Part shown: positions 44,638 through 55,450 of the stretch, piece by piece
Layout: the number at the start of each line of letters is the position of its first letter
How positions within the stretch are numbered: the first letter of the stretch is position 1
From: Flavivirga jejuensis
GTDB lineage: Bacteria; Bacteroidota; Bacteroidia; Flavobacteriales; Flavobacteriaceae
DNA length: 64,000 bases
Direction of reading: 5' to 3'
NCBI RefSeq assembly: GCF_030540765.1
Contig: NZ_JAUOEL010000006.1
Coordinates: forward strand, 124,001-188,000
Notes under the pieces: model-generated
The model's database searches: none
Seen by the model: the letters and a program-made list of their open reading frames with translations, nothing else
Told to the model about the DNA's origin: nothing
Made by a program: the position numbers and the translations under genes

Positions 44638-45256
44638 AAAGAGACTGTCTAAAAAGTGATGACCTTTGTCATCCAGAAGCTTGCCTAAGAATCGGCAGAT
44701 CAAGGAGACTTCTGAAGAATCTATACTTGTTTTATTTTGAGATTCTTCACTTCGTTCTGAATGACACTAACCTTTTGCATACATGGAATGATATTACCAT
44801 TTGTACAAAATAAGACCGACATGTCATTCAGAGACCTGAGATAAAAAAAATATCAAGTGGAGGAAATGACGTTATTGAGTATGGTCAGGTTAGTAGTTTT
44901 TTTGTCATTCCTGCGAAGGCAGGAATCCACATGATCGAATATTTTTAATGTTATGAAAAACAACGTCTTAAAAAATAACGTCAATGGTAGGCTATCGAAA
45001 ACAAAATATATTTTGTTTGAAGATATAAGCGAAGCTTACGACTGAAGAATCTTTAGAGATTAATTATAAAGATTCTTCGCTGCGCTCTGAATGACAAGTA
45101 GCTGAAAGTTAGTTATTTACAACAACACGTCAATAGTAAGGAGGTACGACTGAAGAACCTCTTGACGTTTTAATCTTTTTATTTTTGAGATTCTTCACTT
45201 CGTTCTGAATGACAGCGAAACTTACGACTGAAGAATCTCATAAATTTTAATGCTTA
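44638..45256. repeat. Repeat-packed intergenic region
   Basis: This 619-base region has no gene and is built from dispersed repeat modules. GAGACTGTCTAAAAAGTGAT lies at 44641. Several half copies of GAAGAATCT...AGATTCTTCACTTCGTTC follow, with one CCTGC-type palindrome at 44903-44930. A 106-base unit (44989-45094) recurs almost unchanged and in the same orientation at 47809-47914, on the other side of the next gene. More GTACGACTGAAGAAnCT copies run to 45240. Confidence 0.8.
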
Positions 45257-47602
45257 TTACAAATTTTGATATGAAGAAACAAGTCGAATAAATTCTGCTC
45301 TATACCCCTCTTTATCATCTCCTCTACCTTTTTTAGCCAACTCAATAACATCTTCTGTTTTCGAATTATTATGATATTTAGATTGTCTTAATTGCATTCC
45401 CAACAAAGCTACTGCTGAAGCAAACTTCAAATCTTCGGAAGCTTCTGTTATAGTGTTTTTCTGAACATGAACCATTTCTATACTTTTATCTCCATCTGGC
45501 TTTTTATATCTAAACTTTACTGTAAATAATTCATCCGAATAATTCTTAGTGACTTCAGTTTTAGTATATTTTAAATCACTCACATCTTTAAGGTAATCAC
45601 TTTTTACCCCATTTGGAATCACCTCATACAAAGCTGTTACTGTATGTCCGCTTCCCAATTCTCCTGCATCTTTTGCGTCGTCAATAAAATCTTCATCTTC
45701 AAGTATTCTATTTTCATATCCAATCAATCTATAGGCTTGTACTATATTGGGATTAAATTCTATCTGAATTTTTACATCTTTTGCTATAGTAAATAATGTG
45801 CCTCCAAATTCTTTTCCAAAAACTTTTTGAGCTTCTTGCATCGTATCGATATATGCATGGTTTCCATTTCCTTTATCGGCTAATGTTTCAAGCTTAGAAT
45901 CTTTATAATTTCCATAGCCAAATCCTAAAACCGATAGAAACACACCTGATTTTCGTTTTTCTTCAATTAATGTTTCCATAGCTTTATCACTAGACGCTCC
46001 TACATTAAAATCCCCATCGGTAGCTAAAATTACTCGATTATTCCCATTCTTTTTATAATGTTTTTCTGCTAATTTGTAAGCTAGTTTTATACCAGCTCCA
46101 CCAGCTGTAGATCCTCCAGATTTTAAATGATCTAAAGCAGCTAATATTTTCTCTTTATGCTTTCCAGAAGTTGGTTCTAAAACAACACCAGCAGCACCAG
46201 CGTATACAACTATTGAGACTTTATCTTGTTCACGCAGTTGATTCACTAAAAGCCTGAAAGCCGATTTTAAAAGCGGGAGTTTGTTTTGAGACCCCATAGA
46301 ACCAGAAACATCTAATAGAAATGTTAGGTTTGATGCTGGCAATTCTTCATGAGCATATGTTTTTCCTTGTAATCCTATTTTAACAATTTTAGTCTCATTA
46401 TGCCATGGTGTTCTAGCTACTTCTGTATTTATTGAAAAAGGATGTTCATTCGTTGGTTGTGGGTATTTATAATCAAAATAATTAACCATTTCTTCAATTT
46501 TAACGGCATCTGGTTCAATAGATACACCGTTATTAATCATACGTCTTATATTACTATATGAAGCTTTATCAACATCAATAGAAAAAGTAGATAACGGAGA
46601 AAGCGATGTGCGCTCAAAACTATTCTCGTTAATGACAGCATAATTTTCTTGATTATTTAGTCTAAAATTTCCATGGTGTGTTGTTATTACCACACACCCA
46701 TTTTTTGCTATCTTTCCAAATTTTTGCTTTGCCTTCCCTTTTTTATATTCTTTTTTACTATCAATATCAGATGCAGCAATAGTCTCAATTATATAATTAT
46801 TCTCTTTTTTTATTGGAATTCCATCAACGATATATAATAGTTCTTCATCTTTTTCAAATTTCCTGTTTTTTGTAGAAATGAGTATCACACCATTTGCTCC
46901 TTTACTTCCATATACCGATGTAGCACTAGCATCTTTAAGCACACTAATATTTTTTATTTGATTTGGGTTTAAATGTTCCATATTGGAATAAGAGGTTTCA
47001 ACACCATCAACAACAACCATAGGCTCACTTCCTTTTGATACAGATGCTATTCCTCTAATTAGAATACGAGAATTGGAATCTATCATCCCTTTATTATTAG
47101 TAATGTTAACCCCAGACACGTGGCCTTGCATAGTTTTTAAAACGGATGTAGCATTTACTTGATTTGCTAATTTATTGTGATATGCTTTTTGTTTTTGACG
47201 TTTTATTTCTGATTTAGAAATGGGCTTAGACCTAACAACAGAAGCCGATCTTGTTATATAGGACTTCCTAGTAGTTCCATAAGCTGTAACTACAACTTCA
47301 TCTAAGGTTGATATGTCTTCTTCTAACACCACAGAAATTGTATTAAAGGTTCCCACTTTCTTTTCTTGCGTTACAAAACCTAAATAGCTAAAAACAAGAA
47401 CATCTGTTGGTTTTGCTTTAATTTTATAAAGTCCATCAAAATGAGTCGTTACTCCTTTACTCGACCCTTTTATCAAAATAGTTACGCCTGGTAACGGTAA
47501 ACCATCACTTGCAGATGTTACTTTTCCAGATATCAGTCGTTCTTGTCCTTGAATGTGTATTGAAACGGTCAATACAAAAATGAATGTTAATAACGTTTTC
47601 AT
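45257..47602 (-). CDS. TonB-plug / von Willebrand factor A (YfbK-like) fusion protein
   Basis: The 781-aa protein has a signal peptide (about 1-19) and a carboxypeptidase-regulatory-like domain (about 22-105, ISGKVTSASDGLPLPGVTI). A SusC-like plug follows (about 155-250: ILIRGIASVSKGSEPMVVVDG, VLKDASATSVYGSKGANGVI), then a short, degenerate second plug-like unit (about 253-310, LLYIVDGIPIK...NGCVVITTH). Last comes a YfbK-type module: SPLSTFSIDVDKASYSNIRR, a VWA domain with the MIDAS motif DVSGSMGS (about 432-439), and the C-terminal domain found in YfbK. There is no beta-barrel, so it cannot be a transporter. A surface or periplasmic adhesion/scaffold role is likely. Confidence 0.85.
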   Translation of the reverse strand: MKTLLTFIFVLTVSIHIQGQERLISGKVTSASDGLPLPGVTILIKGSSKGVTTHFDGLYKIKAKPTDVLVFSYLGFVTQEKKVGTFNTISVVLEEDISTLDEVVVTAYGTTRKSYITRSASVVRSKPISKSEIKRQKQKAYHNKLANQVNATSVLKTMQGHVSGVNITNNKGMIDSNSRILIRGIASVSKGSEPMVVVDGVETSYSNMEHLNPNQIKNISVLKDASATSVYGSKGANGVILISTKNRKFEKDEELLYIVDGIPIKKENNYIIETIAASDIDSKKEYKKGKAKQKFGKIAKNGCVVITTHHGNFRLNNQENYAVINENSFERTSLSPLSTFSIDVDKASYSNIRRMINNGVSIEPDAVKIEEMVNYFDYKYPQPTNEHPFSINTEVARTPWHNETKIVKIGLQGKTYAHEELPASNLTFLLDVSGSMGSQNKLPLLKSAFRLLVNQLREQDKVSIVVYAGAAGVVLEPTSGKHKEKILAALDHLKSGGSTAGGAGIKLAYKLAEKHYKKNGNNRVILATDGDFNVGASSDKAMETLIEEKRKSGVFLSVLGFGYGNYKDSKLETLADKGNGNHAYIDTMQEAQKVFGKEFGGTLFTIAKDVKIQIEFNPNIVQAYRLIGYENRILEDEDFIDDAKDAGELGSGHTVTALYEVIPNGVKSDYLKDVSDLKYTKTEVTKNYSDELFTVKFRYKKPDGDKSIEMVHVQKNTITEASEDLKFASAVALLGMQLRQSKYHNNSKTEDVIELAKKGRGDDKEGYRAEFIRLVSSYQNL

Positions 47603-48068
47603 AATAGTTGATTTTAAAGTTTAGCATAAAACTAATCTCAAACCCTTTCTTATAAAACCGATAATGAGTGAAGTGTCCTTTTGAATGAGTCAGGTACAAA
47701 AAAAGAGATTAAAGGTCTAAAAAGTGATGAACTATGTCATGTCATCAGAGATCTGTGTTAAAAATTTTAACTAGCGGATGAAATGACGTAATAGGGGTGT
47801 CATTCAGAAGGCTATCGAAAACAAAATATATTTTGTTTGAAGATATAAGCGAAGCTTACGACTGAAGAATCTATAGAAATTAATAATAAAGATTCTTCAC
47901 TTCGTTCTGAATGAACTTTGTCATTCAGAGGAGGTACGACTGAAGAATCTCTTGAAGTTTTAGCCTTTTTATTTTGAGATTCTTCACTTCGTTCTGAATG
48001 ACATTAACTATTATAAAAGAAAGTTACGTACTCTTTAGGCTATTCTTATTCTAATCACTGAATAGTGG
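47603..48068. repeat. Repeat-packed intergenic region
   Basis: This 466-base gap has no gene. It contains the inverse copy (about 47738-47803) of the 32578-32643 module, the second 106-base unit (47809-47914), and further palindromic modules (TTCAGAGGAGGTACGACTGA from 47924, GATTCTTCACTTCGTTCTGA from 47979). Confidence 0.8.
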
Positions 48069-50147
48069 TTAATCTCTTTTCTTTATAGGTCTTGTACCAA
48101 AACGTTTGGTATAAATTTTTGAAAAATAAGTATCATTATTAAAACCTACTTCCAAAGCAAGTTGTTTAAGTAAAATTGTAGGATTCTTTTCTAAAATTTC
48201 TCTGGCTTTTTGAAGCCTTATTTCTTTAATAAAGTTATTTGGACTCAAACCTGTATGACTTTTAATTTTTCTATAAAAAGAACTTTTAGAAATATTAAAT
48301 GTTTCAGCAATACTATCTTGGTTTAGGTTCCTGTCATACGATTTTTCGTAAATATAACGTTTTAGTTCTGTTATAAAACTATCACTATATCTTTCTAGTT
48401 CTATATTGTGAACTTCATTATACGAATTTCTTGAGGTATCATTTTTAATACAATTTTTGATACGCGTTAAAAGTTCTTTTTTATCAAAAGGTTTAGTAAC
48501 ATAATCATCGATTCCAAGTTTTAGAACGTCTAATTTGGTATTAATATCAGTTCTAGCTGTGAGCATAATAATAGGGGTCTTATTGTTATGCTCCTTAAGT
48601 TTTGCAACAAACTCATAGCCATTTAATTTTGGCATCATATAGTCGGTTATTATAAAATCAATGGCTTCTTGTTCAATAATTTTTAAAGCTTCTAAACCAT
48701 TCGAAGCCTCAAAACAAGTATTATTTGGTAATATGGAAACTATATGTTTTCGCATATCATAATTATCATCTACAATTAAAAAATTGGATCCTGATATTTT
48801 AGCATTTTCTTTTAATATATGTTCTTTTTTTATGGCATCGGGTATTGTGTTTGTGCTAGTAATACGAGGCTGTTTTTTTTCTAGAGCTAGTTTAATAGTA
48901 AACGTACTTCCTTTATTAGGGGTACTTTCCAATAAGAGTTGGCCATTGTGTAACTCAATAATTTCTTTGCTAAAAGCTAAACCAATACCACCACTACCAC
49001 CAGATTTATTTATATCGTTGTTAACTTGATAAAATCGATTAAACACATTTTTCATGTTGGCTTTAGCAATACCAATTCCTGTATCAGAAACCTTAATAAG
49101 CACTTCTTGATTTTCTTCAGAAAGATTAATGGTAACCATCCCTACATCTGTATATTTTAAAGCATTTATAAGTATATTAGTAATGGCTCTTTCTAGAAAA
49201 ACGGTATCTATTTTTGCTATATAGTCTTCCATGTTTTCTGAAATGTTAAAAGCAATATTTTTTTGATCAAATAAGGGTTCAAAATCTAGATATTGTTTAC
49301 GAACCAATTCAGAAACATTAGCCAACTTAAATTGTAAACTAAACTGAGAAGATTGCATTTTAGCTAAATCTAATACATTATCCACCATATTAGTAATCGC
49401 ATTAATTTGTTTTTTAATACCTTTTTCAATGGCAATTATTGGTAGTGTTTTTTCTGTGTATTTTTCTAATTCAGAAACTTGTCCCTGAATTAATGTTAAA
49501 GGAGTTCGTATTTCATGAGATATATTGGTAAAAAATTGAGATTTAAATTTATCGAGCTGTTCTAATTCTTTTGTTTTAGCTTCTAGTATTTTTTCATTTC
49601 TAATATTAAGATTTTTAAAATAACTAACTACTATAAACACGCCATAAAACAAGAAAGGGGGGTTCATGTTATTAAAAACAGAAACAGGGTAATGTTTAAA
49701 ATGCAAATTAGGAAAGTAAAACCCTGATAAACATATTATTAAGACAAAAATATTTATCTTTTTATTATCAATATAAATTAATGAAACTGCAGGAGGTAAT
49801 AAAAAATAATATTCTAAAAGCTCAGCTTTATACATATAATTAGAAAATAATAAGATCATTATTGTAAGATTAAAAATACATACAATACTGGCAATAAAAT
49901 GCTTCTTGTAATATTGTAATATTTTTACACTAGCTATAAAAAATAGCATAATTATATAACTCATATTTATGAGCTGGTCTTTAAAAAAATCTTCTATAAA
50001 AGAAAAGAGCACAAATAAAATCCAACTATTACAAAATATGTTTAGCAACTTAATCTTCTTAAAATCATTTTCGCTCGTATTTTCATCGATTCCTAATGAA
50101 GTATTGGTGTAAAATAACGCAGTTATTTTCTTAATTATTTTTTTCAT
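48069..50147 (-). CDS. Hybrid histidine kinase / response regulator with AraC output domain
   Basis: From the ATG at 50147 the product is 692 aa. About six N-terminal membrane helices (about 35-185) replace the large periplasmic sensor of classical Bacteroides HTCS proteins. Next are HisKA with the phospho-accepting His211 in FFTNISHEIRTPLTL and HATPase (NALKY N box, DTGIGI and GGSGGIGLA G boxes). A receiver domain with Asp502 in FIITDYMMPKLNG and a conserved TKPF lysine follows, and then a C-terminal AraC helix-turn-helix pair (about 590-692). It therefore senses, phosphorylates itself and binds DNA in one chain. It is divergent from the first BspA-like gene. A longer TTG start at 50168 is less likely. 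Confidence 0.93.
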   Translation of the reverse strand: MKKIIKKITALFYTNTSLGIDENTSENDFKKIKLLNIFCNSWILFVLFSFIEDFFKDQLINMSYIIMLFFIASVKILQYYKKHFIASIVCIFNLTIMILLFSNYMYKAELLEYYFLLPPAVSLIYIDNKKINIFVLIICLSGFYFPNLHFKHYPVSVFNNMNPPFLFYGVFIVVSYFKNLNIRNEKILEAKTKELEQLDKFKSQFFTNISHEIRTPLTLIQGQVSELEKYTEKTLPIIAIEKGIKKQINAITNMVDNVLDLAKMQSSQFSLQFKLANVSELVRKQYLDFEPLFDQKNIAFNISENMEDYIAKIDTVFLERAITNILINALKYTDVGMVTINLSEENQEVLIKVSDTGIGIAKANMKNVFNRFYQVNNDINKSGGSGGIGLAFSKEIIELHNGQLLLESTPNKGSTFTIKLALEKKQPRITSTNTIPDAIKKEHILKENAKISGSNFLIVDDNYDMRKHIVSILPNNTCFEASNGLEALKIIEQEAIDFIITDYMMPKLNGYEFVAKLKEHNNKTPIIMLTARTDINTKLDVLKLGIDDYVTKPFDKKELLTRIKNCIKNDTSRNSYNEVHNIELERYSDSFITELKRYIYEKSYDRNLNQDSIAETFNISKSSFYRKIKSHTGLSPNNFIKEIRLQKAREILEKNPTILLKQLALEVGFNNDTYFSKIYTKRFGTRPIKKRD

Positions 50148-50212: not shown

Positions 50213-50218
50213 TTGACC
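50213..50218 (+). promoter_or_regulatory. Single TTGACC half-site near the kinase gene
   Basis: AATTGACCAGTTTT at 50211-50224 matches one unit of the paired sites at 50347 and 52514 and lies 66 bases upstream of the hybrid kinase start. It could be an autoregulatory half-site. Confidence 0.4.
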
Positions 50219-50346
50219 AGTTTTAAGTATTTATATTTAAGTTTTGCTTTTTGTTGCTACAAATTTAATAGTTATAAAATTTCACTTGAAAATATTTATT
50301 TTTTTGTATGTAGATTCTTTAAAAAATAAGCTTTACCCCCCAATAA

Positions 50347-50403
50347 TTGACCAATTTGTAAGGTCGATTGACCAATTTGTGATCTTTTAATTCCTTTATT
50401 TTG
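50347..50403 (+). promoter_or_regulatory. Tandem TTGACCAATTTGT sites and promoter of BspA-like gene 1
   Basis: TTGACCAATTTGT occurs at 50347 and again at 50368, exactly 21 bases (two DNA turns) apart in direct orientation, as AraC-type activators prefer. The second copy supplies a TTTG (50376-50379) in -33 position, 17 bases before an imperfect -7 box TATTTTG (50397-50403). The layout suggests activation by the neighbouring hybrid regulator. Confidence 0.65.
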
Positions 50404-50434
50404 TATTTAATTTTAAATGAATCTTATTAAAATC

Positions 50435-52291
50435 ATGAAACCAAATCTTTTAAGACCCCAACACCTACTAATGTTTCTTGCATTTATACTAGTTGCAAGT
50501 TGCTCTAGAGATGATGATAAACAGGTATCAGTAACATTAATAACAATAGAAGCAGAAACCACTAGTATTTTAAAAAGTACTACATTACAATTAACCGCCA
50601 CAGTAAAACCAGAAAATGCAGAAAACAAAGGCATCACTTGGGCTAGTAGTGATGAAACAATAGCTACCGTAAACCAAGAAGGATTAGTAACTGGCTTGGA
50701 ACTCGGGGAAGTAAACATTACAGCAACATCAACAGCAGACTCATCTATAAGTGGAACCTTTACTTTAGTGGTTACTGGATCTACAAGTAATGCTATAACC
50801 TCATTTACTATAAATGATGTAGAGGGAACCATTAATGATGATAATACAATAGTCGTTACATTTCCTTTTGGTACAGATATAACCGCATTAACACCTACAA
50901 TTGGTATTCCTGAATTTGCTACTGTAAGCCCAACAGGCGCACAGGATTTTTCAGCACCCATTAGCTATACGGTAACTGCCGAAGATGGTAGTACTGCAAC
51001 ATATACAGTTAGTGTTACAGTGAATGCACCTTCCCCTTTTATTACAACTTGGAAAACGACTAGCGACAATGAGAGTATTACAATTTACATAAACCCTAAT
51101 ATCACTACTGGATACGATTACCAAATAAATTGGGGAGATGGCAGTACAGAAAGTAATCTTACAGGAGATGCTACCCACAAATATGCGAGTGCAGGAACCT
51201 ATATCGTAGAAATATCAGGTGATTTTCCTGCTATCTATTCTGGTTATAATAACAGAATAAACGCAGAAAAACTCCAAACGATTGAAAATTGGGGCGATAT
51301 AACATGGAAAAGTATGGAAAAAGCATTTGCTTATTGTACTAATCTAACCTATAATGCTACAGATATTCCTAATCTAGATAATGTAACTAATATGGCTAGT
51401 ATGTTTTTTGTTGCATCCGATTTTAATGGAGATCTTAGTAGTTGGGATGTTAGTAAGGTAACTAATATGGTAGCTATGTTTTTTGGTGCATCCGATTTTA
51501 ATGGAGATCTTAGTAGTTGGGATGTTAGTAAGGTAACTAATATGGCTAGTATGTTTTTTGGTGCATCCGATTTTAATGGAGATATTAGTAGTTGGGGTGT
51601 TAGTGAGGTAACTAATATGTATGCTATGTTTAATAATGCATCCAGTTTTAATGGAGATATTAGTAGTTGGGATGTAATTAAGGTAACTGATATGGCTAGT
51701 ATGTTTTCAAATGCATCCGATTTTAATGGAGATATTAGTAGTTGGGATGTTAGTGAGGTAACTAATATGGAAGCTATGTTTGCTTACGCATCCAATTTTA
51801 ATGGAGATATTAGTAGTTGGGATGTTAGCAATGTAGAGACTATGCATGCTATGTTTTATTATGCATCCAATTTTAATGGGGATATTAGTAGTTGGGATGT
51901 TAGTAAGGTAACTAATATGAATTTTATGTTTAATAATGCATCCAGTTTTAATGGAGATATTAGTAGTTGGGATGTTAGTAAGGTAATTAATATGTCTAAT
52001 ATGTTTGCTTACGCATCCAATTTTAATGGAGATCTTAGTAATTGGGATGTTAGCAATGTAGAGACTATGCGTGCTATGTTTAATTACGCATCCAATTTTA
52101 ATGGAGATCTTAGTAATTGGGATGTTAGCAAGGTAACTACTACATATGGTATGTTTAATAACGCAACAGCTTTCAGTCAAGACCTTTCAAATTGGGCTAC
52201 AGATAACGTAACAGATTGTGCCATTTTTGCTGCTGGTTCAGGGCTTACATCAGCACAACTACCAACTGCGGGTACTTGTTTTCAGCCATAA
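50435..52291 (+). CDS. BspA-like repeat lipoprotein 1 (11 repeats)
   Basis: The product from ATG 50435 is 618 aa. A lipoprotein signal (LAFILVASCS, cysteine lipobox) is followed by a bacterial Ig-like Big_2 domain (about 30-110, ATVKPENAENKGITWASSDE). An Ig-like/cadherin-like domain ending YTVTAEDGSTATYTVSV comes next (about 115-195), then a PKD-like segment (YDYQINWGDGSTES). Last are 11 units of a 25-residue repeat (FNGDISSWDVSKVTNM type), ending in a shared SAQLPTAGTCFQP tail. These BspA/DUF285-type solenoids are surface adhesins or binding proteins. The start is chosen because the third paralogue has no ATG at the position equivalent to 50417. Confidence 0.88.
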   Translation: MKPNLLRPQHLLMFLAFILVASCSRDDDKQVSVTLITIEAETTSILKSTTLQLTATVKPENAENKGITWASSDETIATVNQEGLVTGLELGEVNITATSTADSSISGTFTLVVTGSTSNAITSFTINDVEGTINDDNTIVVTFPFGTDITALTPTIGIPEFATVSPTGAQDFSAPISYTVTAEDGSTATYTVSVTVNAPSPFITTWKTTSDNESITIYINPNITTGYDYQINWGDGSTESNLTGDATHKYASAGTYIVEISGDFPAIYSGYNNRINAEKLQTIENWGDITWKSMEKAFAYCTNLTYNATDIPNLDNVTNMASMFFVASDFNGDLSSWDVSKVTNMVAMFFGASDFNGDLSSWDVSKVTNMASMFFGASDFNGDISSWGVSEVTNMYAMFNNASSFNGDISSWDVIKVTDMASMFSNASDFNGDISSWDVSEVTNMEAMFAYASNFNGDISSWDVSNVETMHAMFYYASNFNGDISSWDVSKVTNMNFMFNNASSFNGDISSWDVSKVINMSNMFAYASNFNGDLSNWDVSNVETMRAMFNYASNFNGDLSNWDVSKVTTTYGMFNNATAFSQDLSNWATDNVTDCAIFAAGSGLTSAQLPTAGTCFQP

Positions 52292-52365
52292 TAAGCCTAA
52301 GTGATAAATTATGAAGCTAAATGCCTTGCAGATTTTAGTGAAAGGCTAGGGTATAAATTTTATTA

Positions 52366-52402
52366 TTAAAAAAGGCTGGTTTAAAAAACCAGCCTTTTTT
52401 AA
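52366..52402 (+). terminator. Terminator after BspA-like gene 1
   Basis: TTAAAAAAGGCTGGTTT pairs perfectly with AAACCAGCCTTTTTTAA around AAA. The same hairpin and 60 preceding bases follow all three paralogues. Confidence 0.9.
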
Positions 52403-52513
52403 TTAGTAGTCACTTTTAAGAAGTACATATAGTATCCTTTAGTTTTAATAAACCTAATCATTATCTACTTTTTTTATAAGAAAAAACTTCAAAATAGATT
52501 TCACCCCCAATAA

Positions 52514-52570
52514 TTGACCAGTTTGTGAGGTTGATTGACCAATTTGTGATCTTTTGATTCTCTTATTTTG
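52514..52570 (+). promoter_or_regulatory. Tandem TTGACC sites and promoter of BspA-like gene 2
   Basis: TTGACCAGTTTGT at 52514 and TTGACCAATTTGT at 52535 are again 21 bases apart. TTTG (52543-52546) and TATTTTG (52564-52570) have the same 17-base spacing as before gene 1. Confidence 0.65.
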
Positions 52571-52601
52571 CATTTAATTTTAAATGAATCTTATTAAAAT
52601 C

Positions 52602-53792
52602 ATGAAACCAAATCTTTTAAAAACCCAACACCTACTATTGTTTTTTGCATTTATACTAGTTGCAAGTTGCTCTAGCGATGATGATAAAACTGAAGCATCA
52701 AGTATTGAAGTAAACTCAATAACAATAGAAGCAGAAACCGAAACCACTAGTATTTCAAAAAGTACTACATTACAATTAACCGCCACAGTAAAACCAGAAA
52801 ATGCAGAAAACAAAGGCATCACTTGGGCTAGTAGTGATGAAACGATAGCTACCGTAAACCAAGAAGGATTAGTAACTGGCTTGGAACTCGGGGAAGTAAA
52901 CATTACAGCAACATCAACAGCAGACTCATCTATAAGTGGAACCTTTACTTTAGTGGTTACTGGATCAACAAGTAATGCTATTACCTCATTTACTATAAAT
53001 GATGTAGAGGGAACTATTAATGATGATAATACAATAGTCGTTACATTTCCTTTTGGTACAGTTATAACCGCATTAACACCTACAATTGGTATTTCTGAAT
53101 TTGCTACTGTAATCCCAACAGGCGTACAAGATTTTTCAGCACCCATTAGCTATACGGTAACTGCCGAAGATGGTAGTATTGCAACATATACAGTTAGTGT
53201 TACGGTGAATGCACCTTTTATTACAACTTGGAAAACGACTAGCGACAATGAAAGTATTACAATTTACACGAATCCTAATATTATTACTGGATACGATTAC
53301 CAAATAAATTGGGGAGATGGCAGTACAGAAAGTAATCTTACAAGAGATGCTACCCACCAATATGTGAGTGCAGGAACCTATATTGTAGAAATATCAGGTG
53401 ATTTTCCTGCTATTTATTCTCCTTATTCTAATGCAACAAACTCAGAAAAACTCCAAACGATTGAAAGTTGGGGCGATATAACATGGAAAAGTATGGAAAA
53501 AGCATTTGCTTATTGTGCTAACCTAACCTATAACGCTACAGATATTCCTAATCTAGATAATGTAAACGATATGTCTGATGTGTTTACTTTCGCATCCAAT
53601 TTTAATGGAGATATTAGTAGTTGGGATGTTAGTAAGGTAACTGATATGCGATTTATGTTTTTTGATGCAACAGCTTTCAATCAAGACCTTTCAAACTGGG
53701 CTACAGATAACGTAAGATATTGTGACTATTTTGATGCCGGTTCAGCGCTTACACCAGCACAACTACCAACTGCAGGTTGTTTTCAGCGATAA
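52602..53792 (+). CDS. BspA-like repeat lipoprotein 2 (2 repeats)
   Basis: The product from ATG 52602 is 396 aa and collinear with paralogue 1: lipoprotein signal (LVASCSSDDDK), Big_2 domain, cadherin-like domain, PKD-like WGDGSTES segment. It has only one FNGDISSWDV repeat and one terminal FNQDLSNWAT unit before the common PAQLPTAGCFQR end. The loss of nine units relative to paralogue 1 is in frame. It is preceded by the same paired TTGACC sites and followed by the same terminator, so it is a separately regulated copy. Confidence 0.87.
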   Translation: MKPNLLKTQHLLLFFAFILVASCSSDDDKTEASSIEVNSITIEAETETTSISKSTTLQLTATVKPENAENKGITWASSDETIATVNQEGLVTGLELGEVNITATSTADSSISGTFTLVVTGSTSNAITSFTINDVEGTINDDNTIVVTFPFGTVITALTPTIGISEFATVIPTGVQDFSAPISYTVTAEDGSIATYTVSVTVNAPFITTWKTTSDNESITIYTNPNIITGYDYQINWGDGSTESNLTRDATHQYVSAGTYIVEISGDFPAIYSPYSNATNSEKLQTIESWGDITWKSMEKAFAYCANLTYNATDIPNLDNVNDMSDVFTFASNFNGDISSWDVSKVTDMRFMFFDATAFNQDLSNWATDNVRYCDYFDAGSALTPAQLPTAGCFQR

Positions 53793-54052: not shown

Positions 54053-55450
54053 ATGAAATCAAATCTTTTAAGAACCCAACACCTACTAATGTTTCTTGCT
54101 TTTATACTATTGGCTAGTTGCTCTTGCGATGATGATAAACAGGTATCAGTAACATTAATAACAATAGAAGCAGAAACCACTAGTATTTTAAAAAGTACTA
54201 CATTACAATTAACCGCCACTGTAAAACCAGAAAATGCAGAAAACAAAGGCATCACTTGGGCTAGTAGTGATGAAACGATAGCTACCGTAAACCAAGAAGG
54301 ATTAGTAACTGGCTTGGAACTCGGAGAAGTAAGCATTACAGCAACATCAACAGCAGACTCATCCATAAGTGGAACCTTTACTTTGGTGGTTACTGGATCT
54401 ACAAGTAATACTATAACCTCATTTACTATAAATGATGTAGAGGGAACCATTAATGATGATAATACAATAGTCGTTACATTTCCTTTTGGTACAGATATAA
54501 CCGCATTAACACCTACAATTGGTATTCCTGAATTTGCTACTGTAAACCCAACAGCGGTACAAGATTTTTCAACGCCCATTACCTATACAGTAACTGCCGA
54601 AGATGGTAGTACTGCAACATATACAGTTAGTGTTACGGTGAATGCACCTTCCCCTTTTATTACAACTTGGAAAACGACTAGCGACAATGAGGATATTACA
54701 ATTTACATAAACCCTAATATCACTACTGGATACGATTACCAAATAAATTGGGGAGATGGCAGTACAGAAAATAATCTTACAGGAGATGCTACCCATCAAT
54801 ATGCGAGTGCAGGAACCTATACCGTAGAAATATCAGGTGATTTTCCTGCTATCCTTTCTTACGGTAACACAAACGCAGAAAAACTCCAAACGATTGAAGG
54901 TTGGGGCGATATAGCATGGGAAAGTATGACTCTTGCATTTGCTTATTGTACTAATCTAACCTATAATGCTACAGATGTTCCTAACCTAGATAATGTAACG
55001 AGATTGGAGGGGATGTTTATTTCCTCACCCAATTTTAATGGAGATATTAGTAATTGGGATGTTAGTAAGGTAACTAATATGGCTATTATGTTTTATAATG
55101 CAACAGCTTTTAATGCAGATCTTAGTAGTTGGGATGTTAGTGAGGTAACTAATATGTCTAATATGTTTTCTAATGCATCTAGTTTTAATGGAGATATCAA
55201 TAGTTGGGATGTTAGTAAGGTAACTAATATGGAAGCTATGTTTTTTGGTGCATCCAATTTTAATGGAGATCTTAGTAATTGGGATGTTAGTAAGGTAACT
55301 ACTATGTATGGTATGTTTAATAACGCAACAACTTTCAGTCAAGACCTTTCAAATTGGGCTACAGATAACGTAACAGCTTGTGCCTATTTTGATACCGGTT
55401 CAGCGCTTACACCAGCACAACTACCAACTGCAGGTTGTTTTCAGCCATAA
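54053..55450 (+). CDS. BspA-like repeat lipoprotein 3 (5 repeats)
   Basis: The 465-aa product has the same order as the other two: lipoprotein signal (LLASCSCDDDK), Big_2, cadherin-like, PKD-like (WGDGSTENN) and then five 25-residue units (three FNGD, one FNAD, one FSQD), ending PAQLPTAGCFQP. Repeat number differs from its paralogues while the N-terminal domains remain nearly the same, so change is concentrated in the ligand-facing solenoid. It lacks the paired TTGACC sites of copies 1 and 2 and has a consensus -7 box instead. Confidence 0.88.
   Translation: MKSNLLRTQHLLMFLAFILLASCSCDDDKQVSVTLITIEAETTSILKSTTLQLTATVKPENAENKGITWASSDETIATVNQEGLVTGLELGEVSITATSTADSSISGTFTLVVTGSTSNTITSFTINDVEGTINDDNTIVVTFPFGTDITALTPTIGIPEFATVNPTAVQDFSTPITYTVTAEDGSTATYTVSVTVNAPSPFITTWKTTSDNEDITIYINPNITTGYDYQINWGDGSTENNLTGDATHQYASAGTYTVEISGDFPAILSYGNTNAEKLQTIEGWGDIAWESMTLAFAYCTNLTYNATDVPNLDNVTRLEGMFISSPNFNGDISNWDVSKVTNMAIMFYNATAFNADLSSWDVSEVTNMSNMFSNASSFNGDINSWDVSKVTNMEAMFFGASNFNGDLSNWDVSKVTTMYGMFNNATTFSQDLSNWATDNVTACAYFDTGSALTPAQLPTAGCFQP

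Follow-up and report, generated by a model that had tools for sequence, protein, structure and literature searches.

The DNA analysed here, called the window throughout, is a stretch of 64,000 nucleotides from Flavivirga jejuensis (contig NZ_JAUOEL010000006.1), in which paired direct repeats precede two genes for BspA-like proteins next to a divergently transcribed gene for a hybrid kinase with an AraC output domain. The question raised by this locus is which protein acts on the repeats, and which genes come under its control. Hybrid two-component systems (HTCSs), in which a sensor kinase and an AraC output are joined in one chain (PMC3878776; PMC11253607), regulate polysaccharide-utilization genes (PMC11253607), and the operators predicted for them in Bacteroides, direct repeats of 21 bp on average, have been interpreted as sites for dimers two helix turns apart on one face of the DNA (Ravcheev et al. 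2013, PMC3878776). An HTCS with a 21-bp repeat operator is therefore already known as a kind. In the present study, we propose, with a probability of about 0.87, that the direct-repeat pair (15-bp half-site TTGAYYRATTWGTGA, 21-bp period) is the predicted operator of the divergent hybrid regulator, which would activate dispersed genes for surface proteins.

Repeat pairs at the locus

The features of the locus were as follows.

48069..50147, − strand: hybrid regulator, 692 aa from ATG 50147, with an N-terminal membrane region (about residues 1–190) and HisKA, HATPase_c, Response_reg and HTH_18/AraC domains (Pfam, over cut-off)
50213..50225, + strand: isolated half-site-like TTGACCAGTTTTA, not above chance
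50347..50361, + strand: half-site 1 (distal) of the predicted gene 1 operator
50368..50382, + strand: half-site 2 (promoter-proximal) of the same, likely over the −33 region
50396..50403, + strand: −7-like element TTATTTTG of gene 1, its G lying 21 nt after half-site 2
50417..52291, + strand: gene 1, predicted by eye to encode a lipoprotein; its repeats are Big_2, DUF5018 and DUF285 (BspA-like); ATG 50435 may be an alternative start
52514..52528, + strand: half-site 1 of the predicted gene 2 operator
52535..52549, + strand: half-site 2 of the same
52563..52570, + strand: −7-like element TTATTTTG of gene 2
52584..53792, + strand: gene 2, a paralogue of gene 1 for a DUF285 lipoprotein (by eye), possibly starting at ATG 52602
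54053..55450, + strand: gene 3, third DUF285 paralogue

The regulator start at ATG 50147 was chosen by alignment with five homologues, and the listed open reading frame uses TTG 50168. The repeats that a preliminary description had placed before the two BspA/DUF285 genes were found as described, with TTGACCAATTTGT at 50347 and 50368 for gene 1, TTGACCAGTTTGT at 52514 and TTGACCAATTTGT at 52535 for gene 2, all on the + strand and with a start-to-start period of 21 bases in both pairs. Allowing up to 3 mismatches, the pair matched twice in the window, whereas 100 dinucleotide shuffles gave 0.00 matches on average. The genome-wide scan for 21-base pairs that the same description had suggested, run with up to 3 mismatches and the reversed pattern as control, returned 8 pairs against 0 over the whole genome (6.0 Mb, 33 contigs), and every one of the 8 exact half-sites TTGACCAATTTGT in the genome lay within a 21-bp pair. 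Single half-sites were uninformative, since with up to 1 mismatch the genome held 31 of them against 28 in the reversed control; the stretches around other single half-sites (L016–L028) gave no extra pairs at the threshold used. The 13-mer first named as the motif is present but does not make up the full unit, the conserved half-site being longer, about TTGAYYRATTWGTGA.

Two other parts of the preliminary description carried less weight than it gave them. The lone half-site at 50213 (TTGACCAGTTTTA, 2 mismatches), which it had linked to the regulator, was at chance level (14 window matches with up to 2 mismatches, 11.8 expected) with no partner 21 bases away (by eye; the window pair scan also reports none there), and was dropped as evidence for regulator binding. 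Genes 1 and 2, counted as two cases, do both have the repeats but are not independent, their promoters being nearly the same over about 100 nt through the start codon; because these promoters are duplicates, the window alone gives one observation, not two. The gene 3 promoter has kept the −7 element and leader of genes 1 and 2 without the operator repeats, which it either lost or never had, and for this reason gene 3 is probably out of the regulon or silent.

Elsewhere in the window, repeat copies ending in GATTCTTCACTTCGTTCTGAATGACA, plus a 106-nt unit (94% alike), were seen at 44712–45263 and 47745–48003. They flank the gene at 45257–47602, which shares the strand of the regulator gene, lies 3′ of it and encodes a 781-aa fusion of CarboxypepD_reg, TonB plug and VWA/YfbK_C.

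The hybrid regulator

PF00512, PF02518, PF00072 and PF12833 were all above their curated cut-offs in the single regulator protein, which is the architecture of an HTCS. The sequences SHEIRTPL and TDYMMPK, which we take to contain the phospho-acceptor His and the receiver Asp, respectively, have these residues invariant in 6 homologues. By Pfam, the window's regulator had neither a large periplasmic sensor (Reg_prop/Y_Y_Y or a ligand-binding domain) nor a LytTR domain; its N-terminus, of ~190 aa, contains several hydrophobic stretches, but no Pfam domain was recognised in it. Structure prediction from a 6-sequence alignment was poor (mean pLDDT 53.9, pTM 0.28).

Two to three similar regulators coexist in the own genome (that of the window) and in strain Hp32. 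The second own copy is located beside DUF285-type genes where contigs end, and operators precede those genes (L070 1–2826, L015 1–6826 and L014; the starts of own contigs C29 and C1, and C18), and these contig ends look like one tandem array split in the assembly.

Promoter geometry

For the analysis of promoter geometry, 37 pair-bearing promoters were compiled (13 from the own genome, 3 from G005, 2 from G006, 3 from G010, 3 from G011, 10 from Hp32 and one each from G452, G298 and G027); where a promoter had several overlapping or successive pairs, only the pair nearest to the gene was counted. The G066 match (3 mismatches, inside an open reading frame that looks like ftsA by eye) and the own site C12:371937 (weak, with 3 mismatches and without the fixed TTG) were excluded. 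Even with C12:371937 included, none of the 27 Flavivirga sites fell inside an open reading frame of at least 120 aa.

The half-site consensus over the 37 promoters was TTGAYYRATTWGTGA, and the middle of half-site 2 was richer in A (TTGACCAAWWWNTGA). A TTG ended 20 or 21 nt past half-site 2 in 33 of the 37 promoters and was missing from this place in the remaining 4; when promoters with similar downstream DNA were removed, the fixed TTG was found in 16/19 against a background of 0.02 per position. The −7 consensus of Bacteroidota is TAnnTTTG, and on this basis we presume TTATTTTG to be a −7-like element. Since the TTG ends 20–21 nt after half-site 2, this half-site probably lies over the −33 region, with half-site 1 on the same DNA face two turns further upstream. 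Such an arrangement, a half-site at −33/−35 with fixed spacing to −7/−10 in 33/37 promoters, would be the geometry of a class II activator. Six promoters in G006, G010 and G011 had two pairs each, 63–74 bp apart, and in 5 of the 6 the pair nearer to the gene showed the fixed −7 spacing, the exception being G006 C7. A sigma-70 promoter scan, the model of which is ill-suited to the Bacteroidota phylum, was set aside: it gave 14 promoter-like sites where shuffled sequences gave 28.5, and no site ended at the −7 elements described here.

Co-occurrence of the pair and the regulator

Degenerate pairs were detected in 5 of the 12 genomes of the genus (14, 5, 5, 3 and 3 matches) and in none of the other 7, with 1 control match overall, and a full-length regulator at least 60% identical to that of the window was found only in the same 5 genomes, with two copies in the own genome. 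This co-occurrence gave a Fisher p of 0.0013, which is uncorrected for relatedness and overstates independence because the genus genomes are related. DUF285 genes were present in 11/12 genomes, among them 6 of the 7 motif-free ones; the motif is thus not merely travelling with DUF285. LytTR matches numbered 9–34 in each of the 12 genomes; as DUF285 is present in 11/12 and LytTR in 12/12, neither explains the distribution of the motif.

Among 149 relatives, the strict pair (up to 3 mismatches) was found in only 5, namely G066, rejected above, and four genus members, one of which is the own genome. Strain Hp32 gave 15 pair matches and 0 control matches. For G027, the genome search gave 2 overlapping matches and 1 control match, so this case rests on the regulator-side motif itself (score 14.0, modest), which has three tandem half-sites at a 21-bp period and a TTG at the fixed place. 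In G452, G298 and G027, the sole site found with the pattern used was the regulator-linked one, which suggests a local ancestral pair that may later have been passed on to scattered genes, both in Flavivirga and in Hp32.

Linkage of the pair to the output module

The pair was located upstream of, and reading away from, 12 of the 17 full-length regulator homologues examined. All 12 homologues with an HTH at least 48% identical to that of the window (48–100%) had the pair, with scores of 14.0–44.8, and six of these were outside the matrix training (three in Hp32, and those of G452, G298 and G027). The other five, with HTH identities of 47% or less, had no pair upstream (best score 1.8); they comprise G337 (28%) and four homologues in G003, G007 and G011 (42–47%), and in at least two of these four an N-terminal motif of a similar kind, KKIRLLNIF, was noted by eye. 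The dividing line of 48% was set after the scores were known. No motif was found near a 166-aa fragment in G005, which consists of a receiver end and an HTH (53% identical) with no kinase or sensor, or upstream of seven other HTCS-like genes of the own genome (scores at most 1.1); these came from 8 loci, one of which yielded no gene with the pattern used.

Natural exchange of sensors was also seen among these proteins. Hp32_3, a protein of 1270 aa with Reg_prop, Y_Y_Y, kinase and receiver domains and an HTH 64% identical to that of the window, has the motif, and G337 is its reverse, with a related sensor, a 28%-identical HTH and no motif; the genus homologues with a similar N-terminus but no motif lean the same way as G337. 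Because the propeller-sensor HTCS with the same output also has the pair, it is the output module, rather than the sensor, that the operator follows. Among the homologues, divergence of the HTH is accompanied by that of the kinase and receiver, and the swap therefore implicates the entire C-terminal module. Taken with the co-occurrence in 5/12 genomes, the linkage at 12/17 homologues and the lack of the motif at the 7 other regulators give comparative support to the earlier proposal that the repeats are sites for the AraC-type regulator.

Related arrangements were also recorded. Sister short-sensor hybrid regulators with 42–47% identical HTHs occur without the window's operator at L072 6242–10879, L073 7396–9585 and L074 7322–9523. 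In Hp32 (L116, L141/L150 and L145), three hybrid regulators follow one another; each is paired with a divergent operator and a surface protein of its own, and one of the three has a Reg_prop/Y_Y_Y sensor.

Genes downstream of the pairs

An open reading frame of at least 100 aa begins within 520 nt downstream in 28/37 promoters; two of the 9 promoters lacking one are directed off the edge of their contig. Of the 28 target frames, 24 were judged by eye to start with a signal peptide, a lipobox or a membrane anchor. The Pfam scan covered 26 of the 28 and assigned 5 to DUF285, 6 to other LRR/BspA-type families, 2 to LamG and 1 to M57 peptidases, with Por_Secre_tail in 6 over the cut-off and in 2 below it (the Pfam classes overlap), and 8 had no Pfam family. 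SusC/SusD or catalytic CAZyme families were found in 0/26 scanned targets, and these 26 gave no sign of control of an adjacent polysaccharide-utilization locus. The site C12:109538 lies downstream of a gene that looks susD-like (by eye), and for this reason may belong to such a locus. Unrelated targets (a 1498-aa protein with a sub-threshold T9SS tail, a 1620-aa LamG protein, proteins of 363 and 229 aa, and others) had little in common beyond the operator and the −7 element.

In G006, G010, G452, G298 and G027, the regulator-side motif faces no obvious large gene. At L147 8198–8490, L149 7474–7740 and L148 8400–8750, the regulator-side promoter aims into about 270–450 nt with no large gene, a region that holds a terminator-like hairpin (by eye). 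The operator-driven region of G452 contains a 52-aa CPxC/CxxC open reading frame, which looks disrupted in G298, raising the question of a small peptide or small RNA.

Discussion

How the regulator may act can be outlined from the motif, its position, its link to the regulator family and its set of targets, which the sequence comparisons show. A signal would reach the membrane N-terminus of the regulator and a His-to-Asp phosphorelay would proceed within one polypeptide, after which two C-terminal AraC domains would bind head-to-tail, separated by two turns, on one side of the helix. Of these, the promoter-proximal one, over the −33 region and 20–21 nt upstream of the −7 TTG, would then recruit RNA polymerase (class II activation), and the output would be dispersed cell-surface and secreted proteins, including DUF285 and LRR BspA-like, T9SS-tailed and LamG proteins. 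The existence of such a signal, the binding, its dependence on the phosphorelay and an activating rather than repressing role are what we infer from this arrangement.

The activating role has to be weighed against repression, in which the regulator binds the repeats and half-site 2 blocks RNA polymerase at −33 until the kinase is signalled. Half-site 2 would overlap −33 in 33/37 promoters under either role, so the geometry fits repression too. However, going by the spacing rule between −33 and −7 elements, a separate −33 element could not fit into the 20–21 nt between half-site 2 and the last base of the −7 TTG, and the spacing is constant to 1 nt in these 33 promoters, as expected if the regulator contacts polymerase. 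Characterised HTCSs mostly activate, and we regard repression as unlikely. Slightly less likely still is that the repeats are bound by a different regulator, most plausibly of the LytTR type, which has both the hybrid kinase gene and the surface genes under its control. LytTR response regulators such as AgrA and YpdB bind direct repeats of about 21-bp period, about two turns apart, with a DNA-binding fold that differs from that of AraC, so on general knowledge the period would suit LytTR sites as well as AraC sites. LytTR proteins are also abundant (9–34 matches per genome in the 12 genomes), and the own site C29:213333 has a LytTR gene at a distance of 4.3 kb, but among the matches listed no other lies within 5 kb of any site. 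An IclR-like gene (by eye) lies 2.4–3.9 kb from the motif in three syntenic loci (G006, G010 and G011), but none was seen, by eye, at the other regulator loci. Against a LytTR protein stand its occurrence in 12/12 genomes when the motif occurs in just the 5 with the hybrid regulator, and the presence of the motif upstream of 12/12 full-length regulators with a similar HTH, in several contexts, where it tracks the C-terminal module and not the sensor. Unlike LytTR systems, the window's regulator has no LytTR domain, and the motif is not co-distributed with LytTR.

A further explanation, in which the repeats are part of a duplicated mobile promoter that moves with BspA-like genes and has no dedicated regulator, draws on the duplication of promoters 1 and 2 and on several DUF285 copies in the genome with near-identical upstream DNA. 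It is largely refuted by the DUF285 genes in 6 regulator-less genomes, where 0 motif matches were found, and the unrelated targets, which share little beyond operator and −7 element, also speak against it; we consider it very improbable.

The divergent hybrid regulator with its operator, as read here, resembles the Bacteroides HTCS systems described in PMC3878776 in having kinase, receiver and AraC HTH in one polypeptide and a direct-repeat operator of ~21 bp; the Bacteroides operators likewise rest on comparative evidence (PMC3878776). TTGAYYRATTWGTGA was set beside them by period and architecture. Unlike the regulons described in that source, which consist of polysaccharide-utilization genes (PMC3878776), the targets here are mostly scattered surface and secreted proteins, and unlike the large periplasmic domain of Bacteroides HTCSs, the sensor here is a membrane region of ~190 aa. 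SusR-like regulators of Bacteroides also use direct repeats, but with a separation of 67 or 77 bp in place of 21 bp (PMC3878776), although several promoters of G006, G010 and G011 do carry two pairs 63–74 bp apart. PMC12125979 concerns a Vibrio XylR-type regulator. In a search of the open-licence literature, we found no paper joining 'hybrid two-component' with BspA/DUF285 and no report of the TTGAYYRATTWGTGA operator or its regulator assignment. What appears to be new is the predicted operator TTGAYYRATTWGTGA and its assignment to this regulator, together with the short membrane sensor and a putative regulon made up of dispersed surface proteins.

A broader and more tentative picture, to which we give somewhat less than even odds, is that regulator, divergent operator and surface repeat protein make up one cassette, which is duplicated as a whole and in which sensors are exchanged but the operator code stays the same, and that this operator has been recruited by scattered T9SS, LRR and DUF285 genes into one signal-controlled 'surface coat' regulon apart from polysaccharide-utilization loci. 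Because the natural swap keeps the output and operator and changes the sensor, signal and output should be separable in experiments. HTCSs have been studied mainly as switches of polysaccharide-utilization loci. The candidate operator defined here makes a switch and the genes likely under its control directly testable, and thereby opens a testable route to the control of BspA-like, LRR and T9SS-tailed proteins, which are common but poorly understood in marine flavobacteria.
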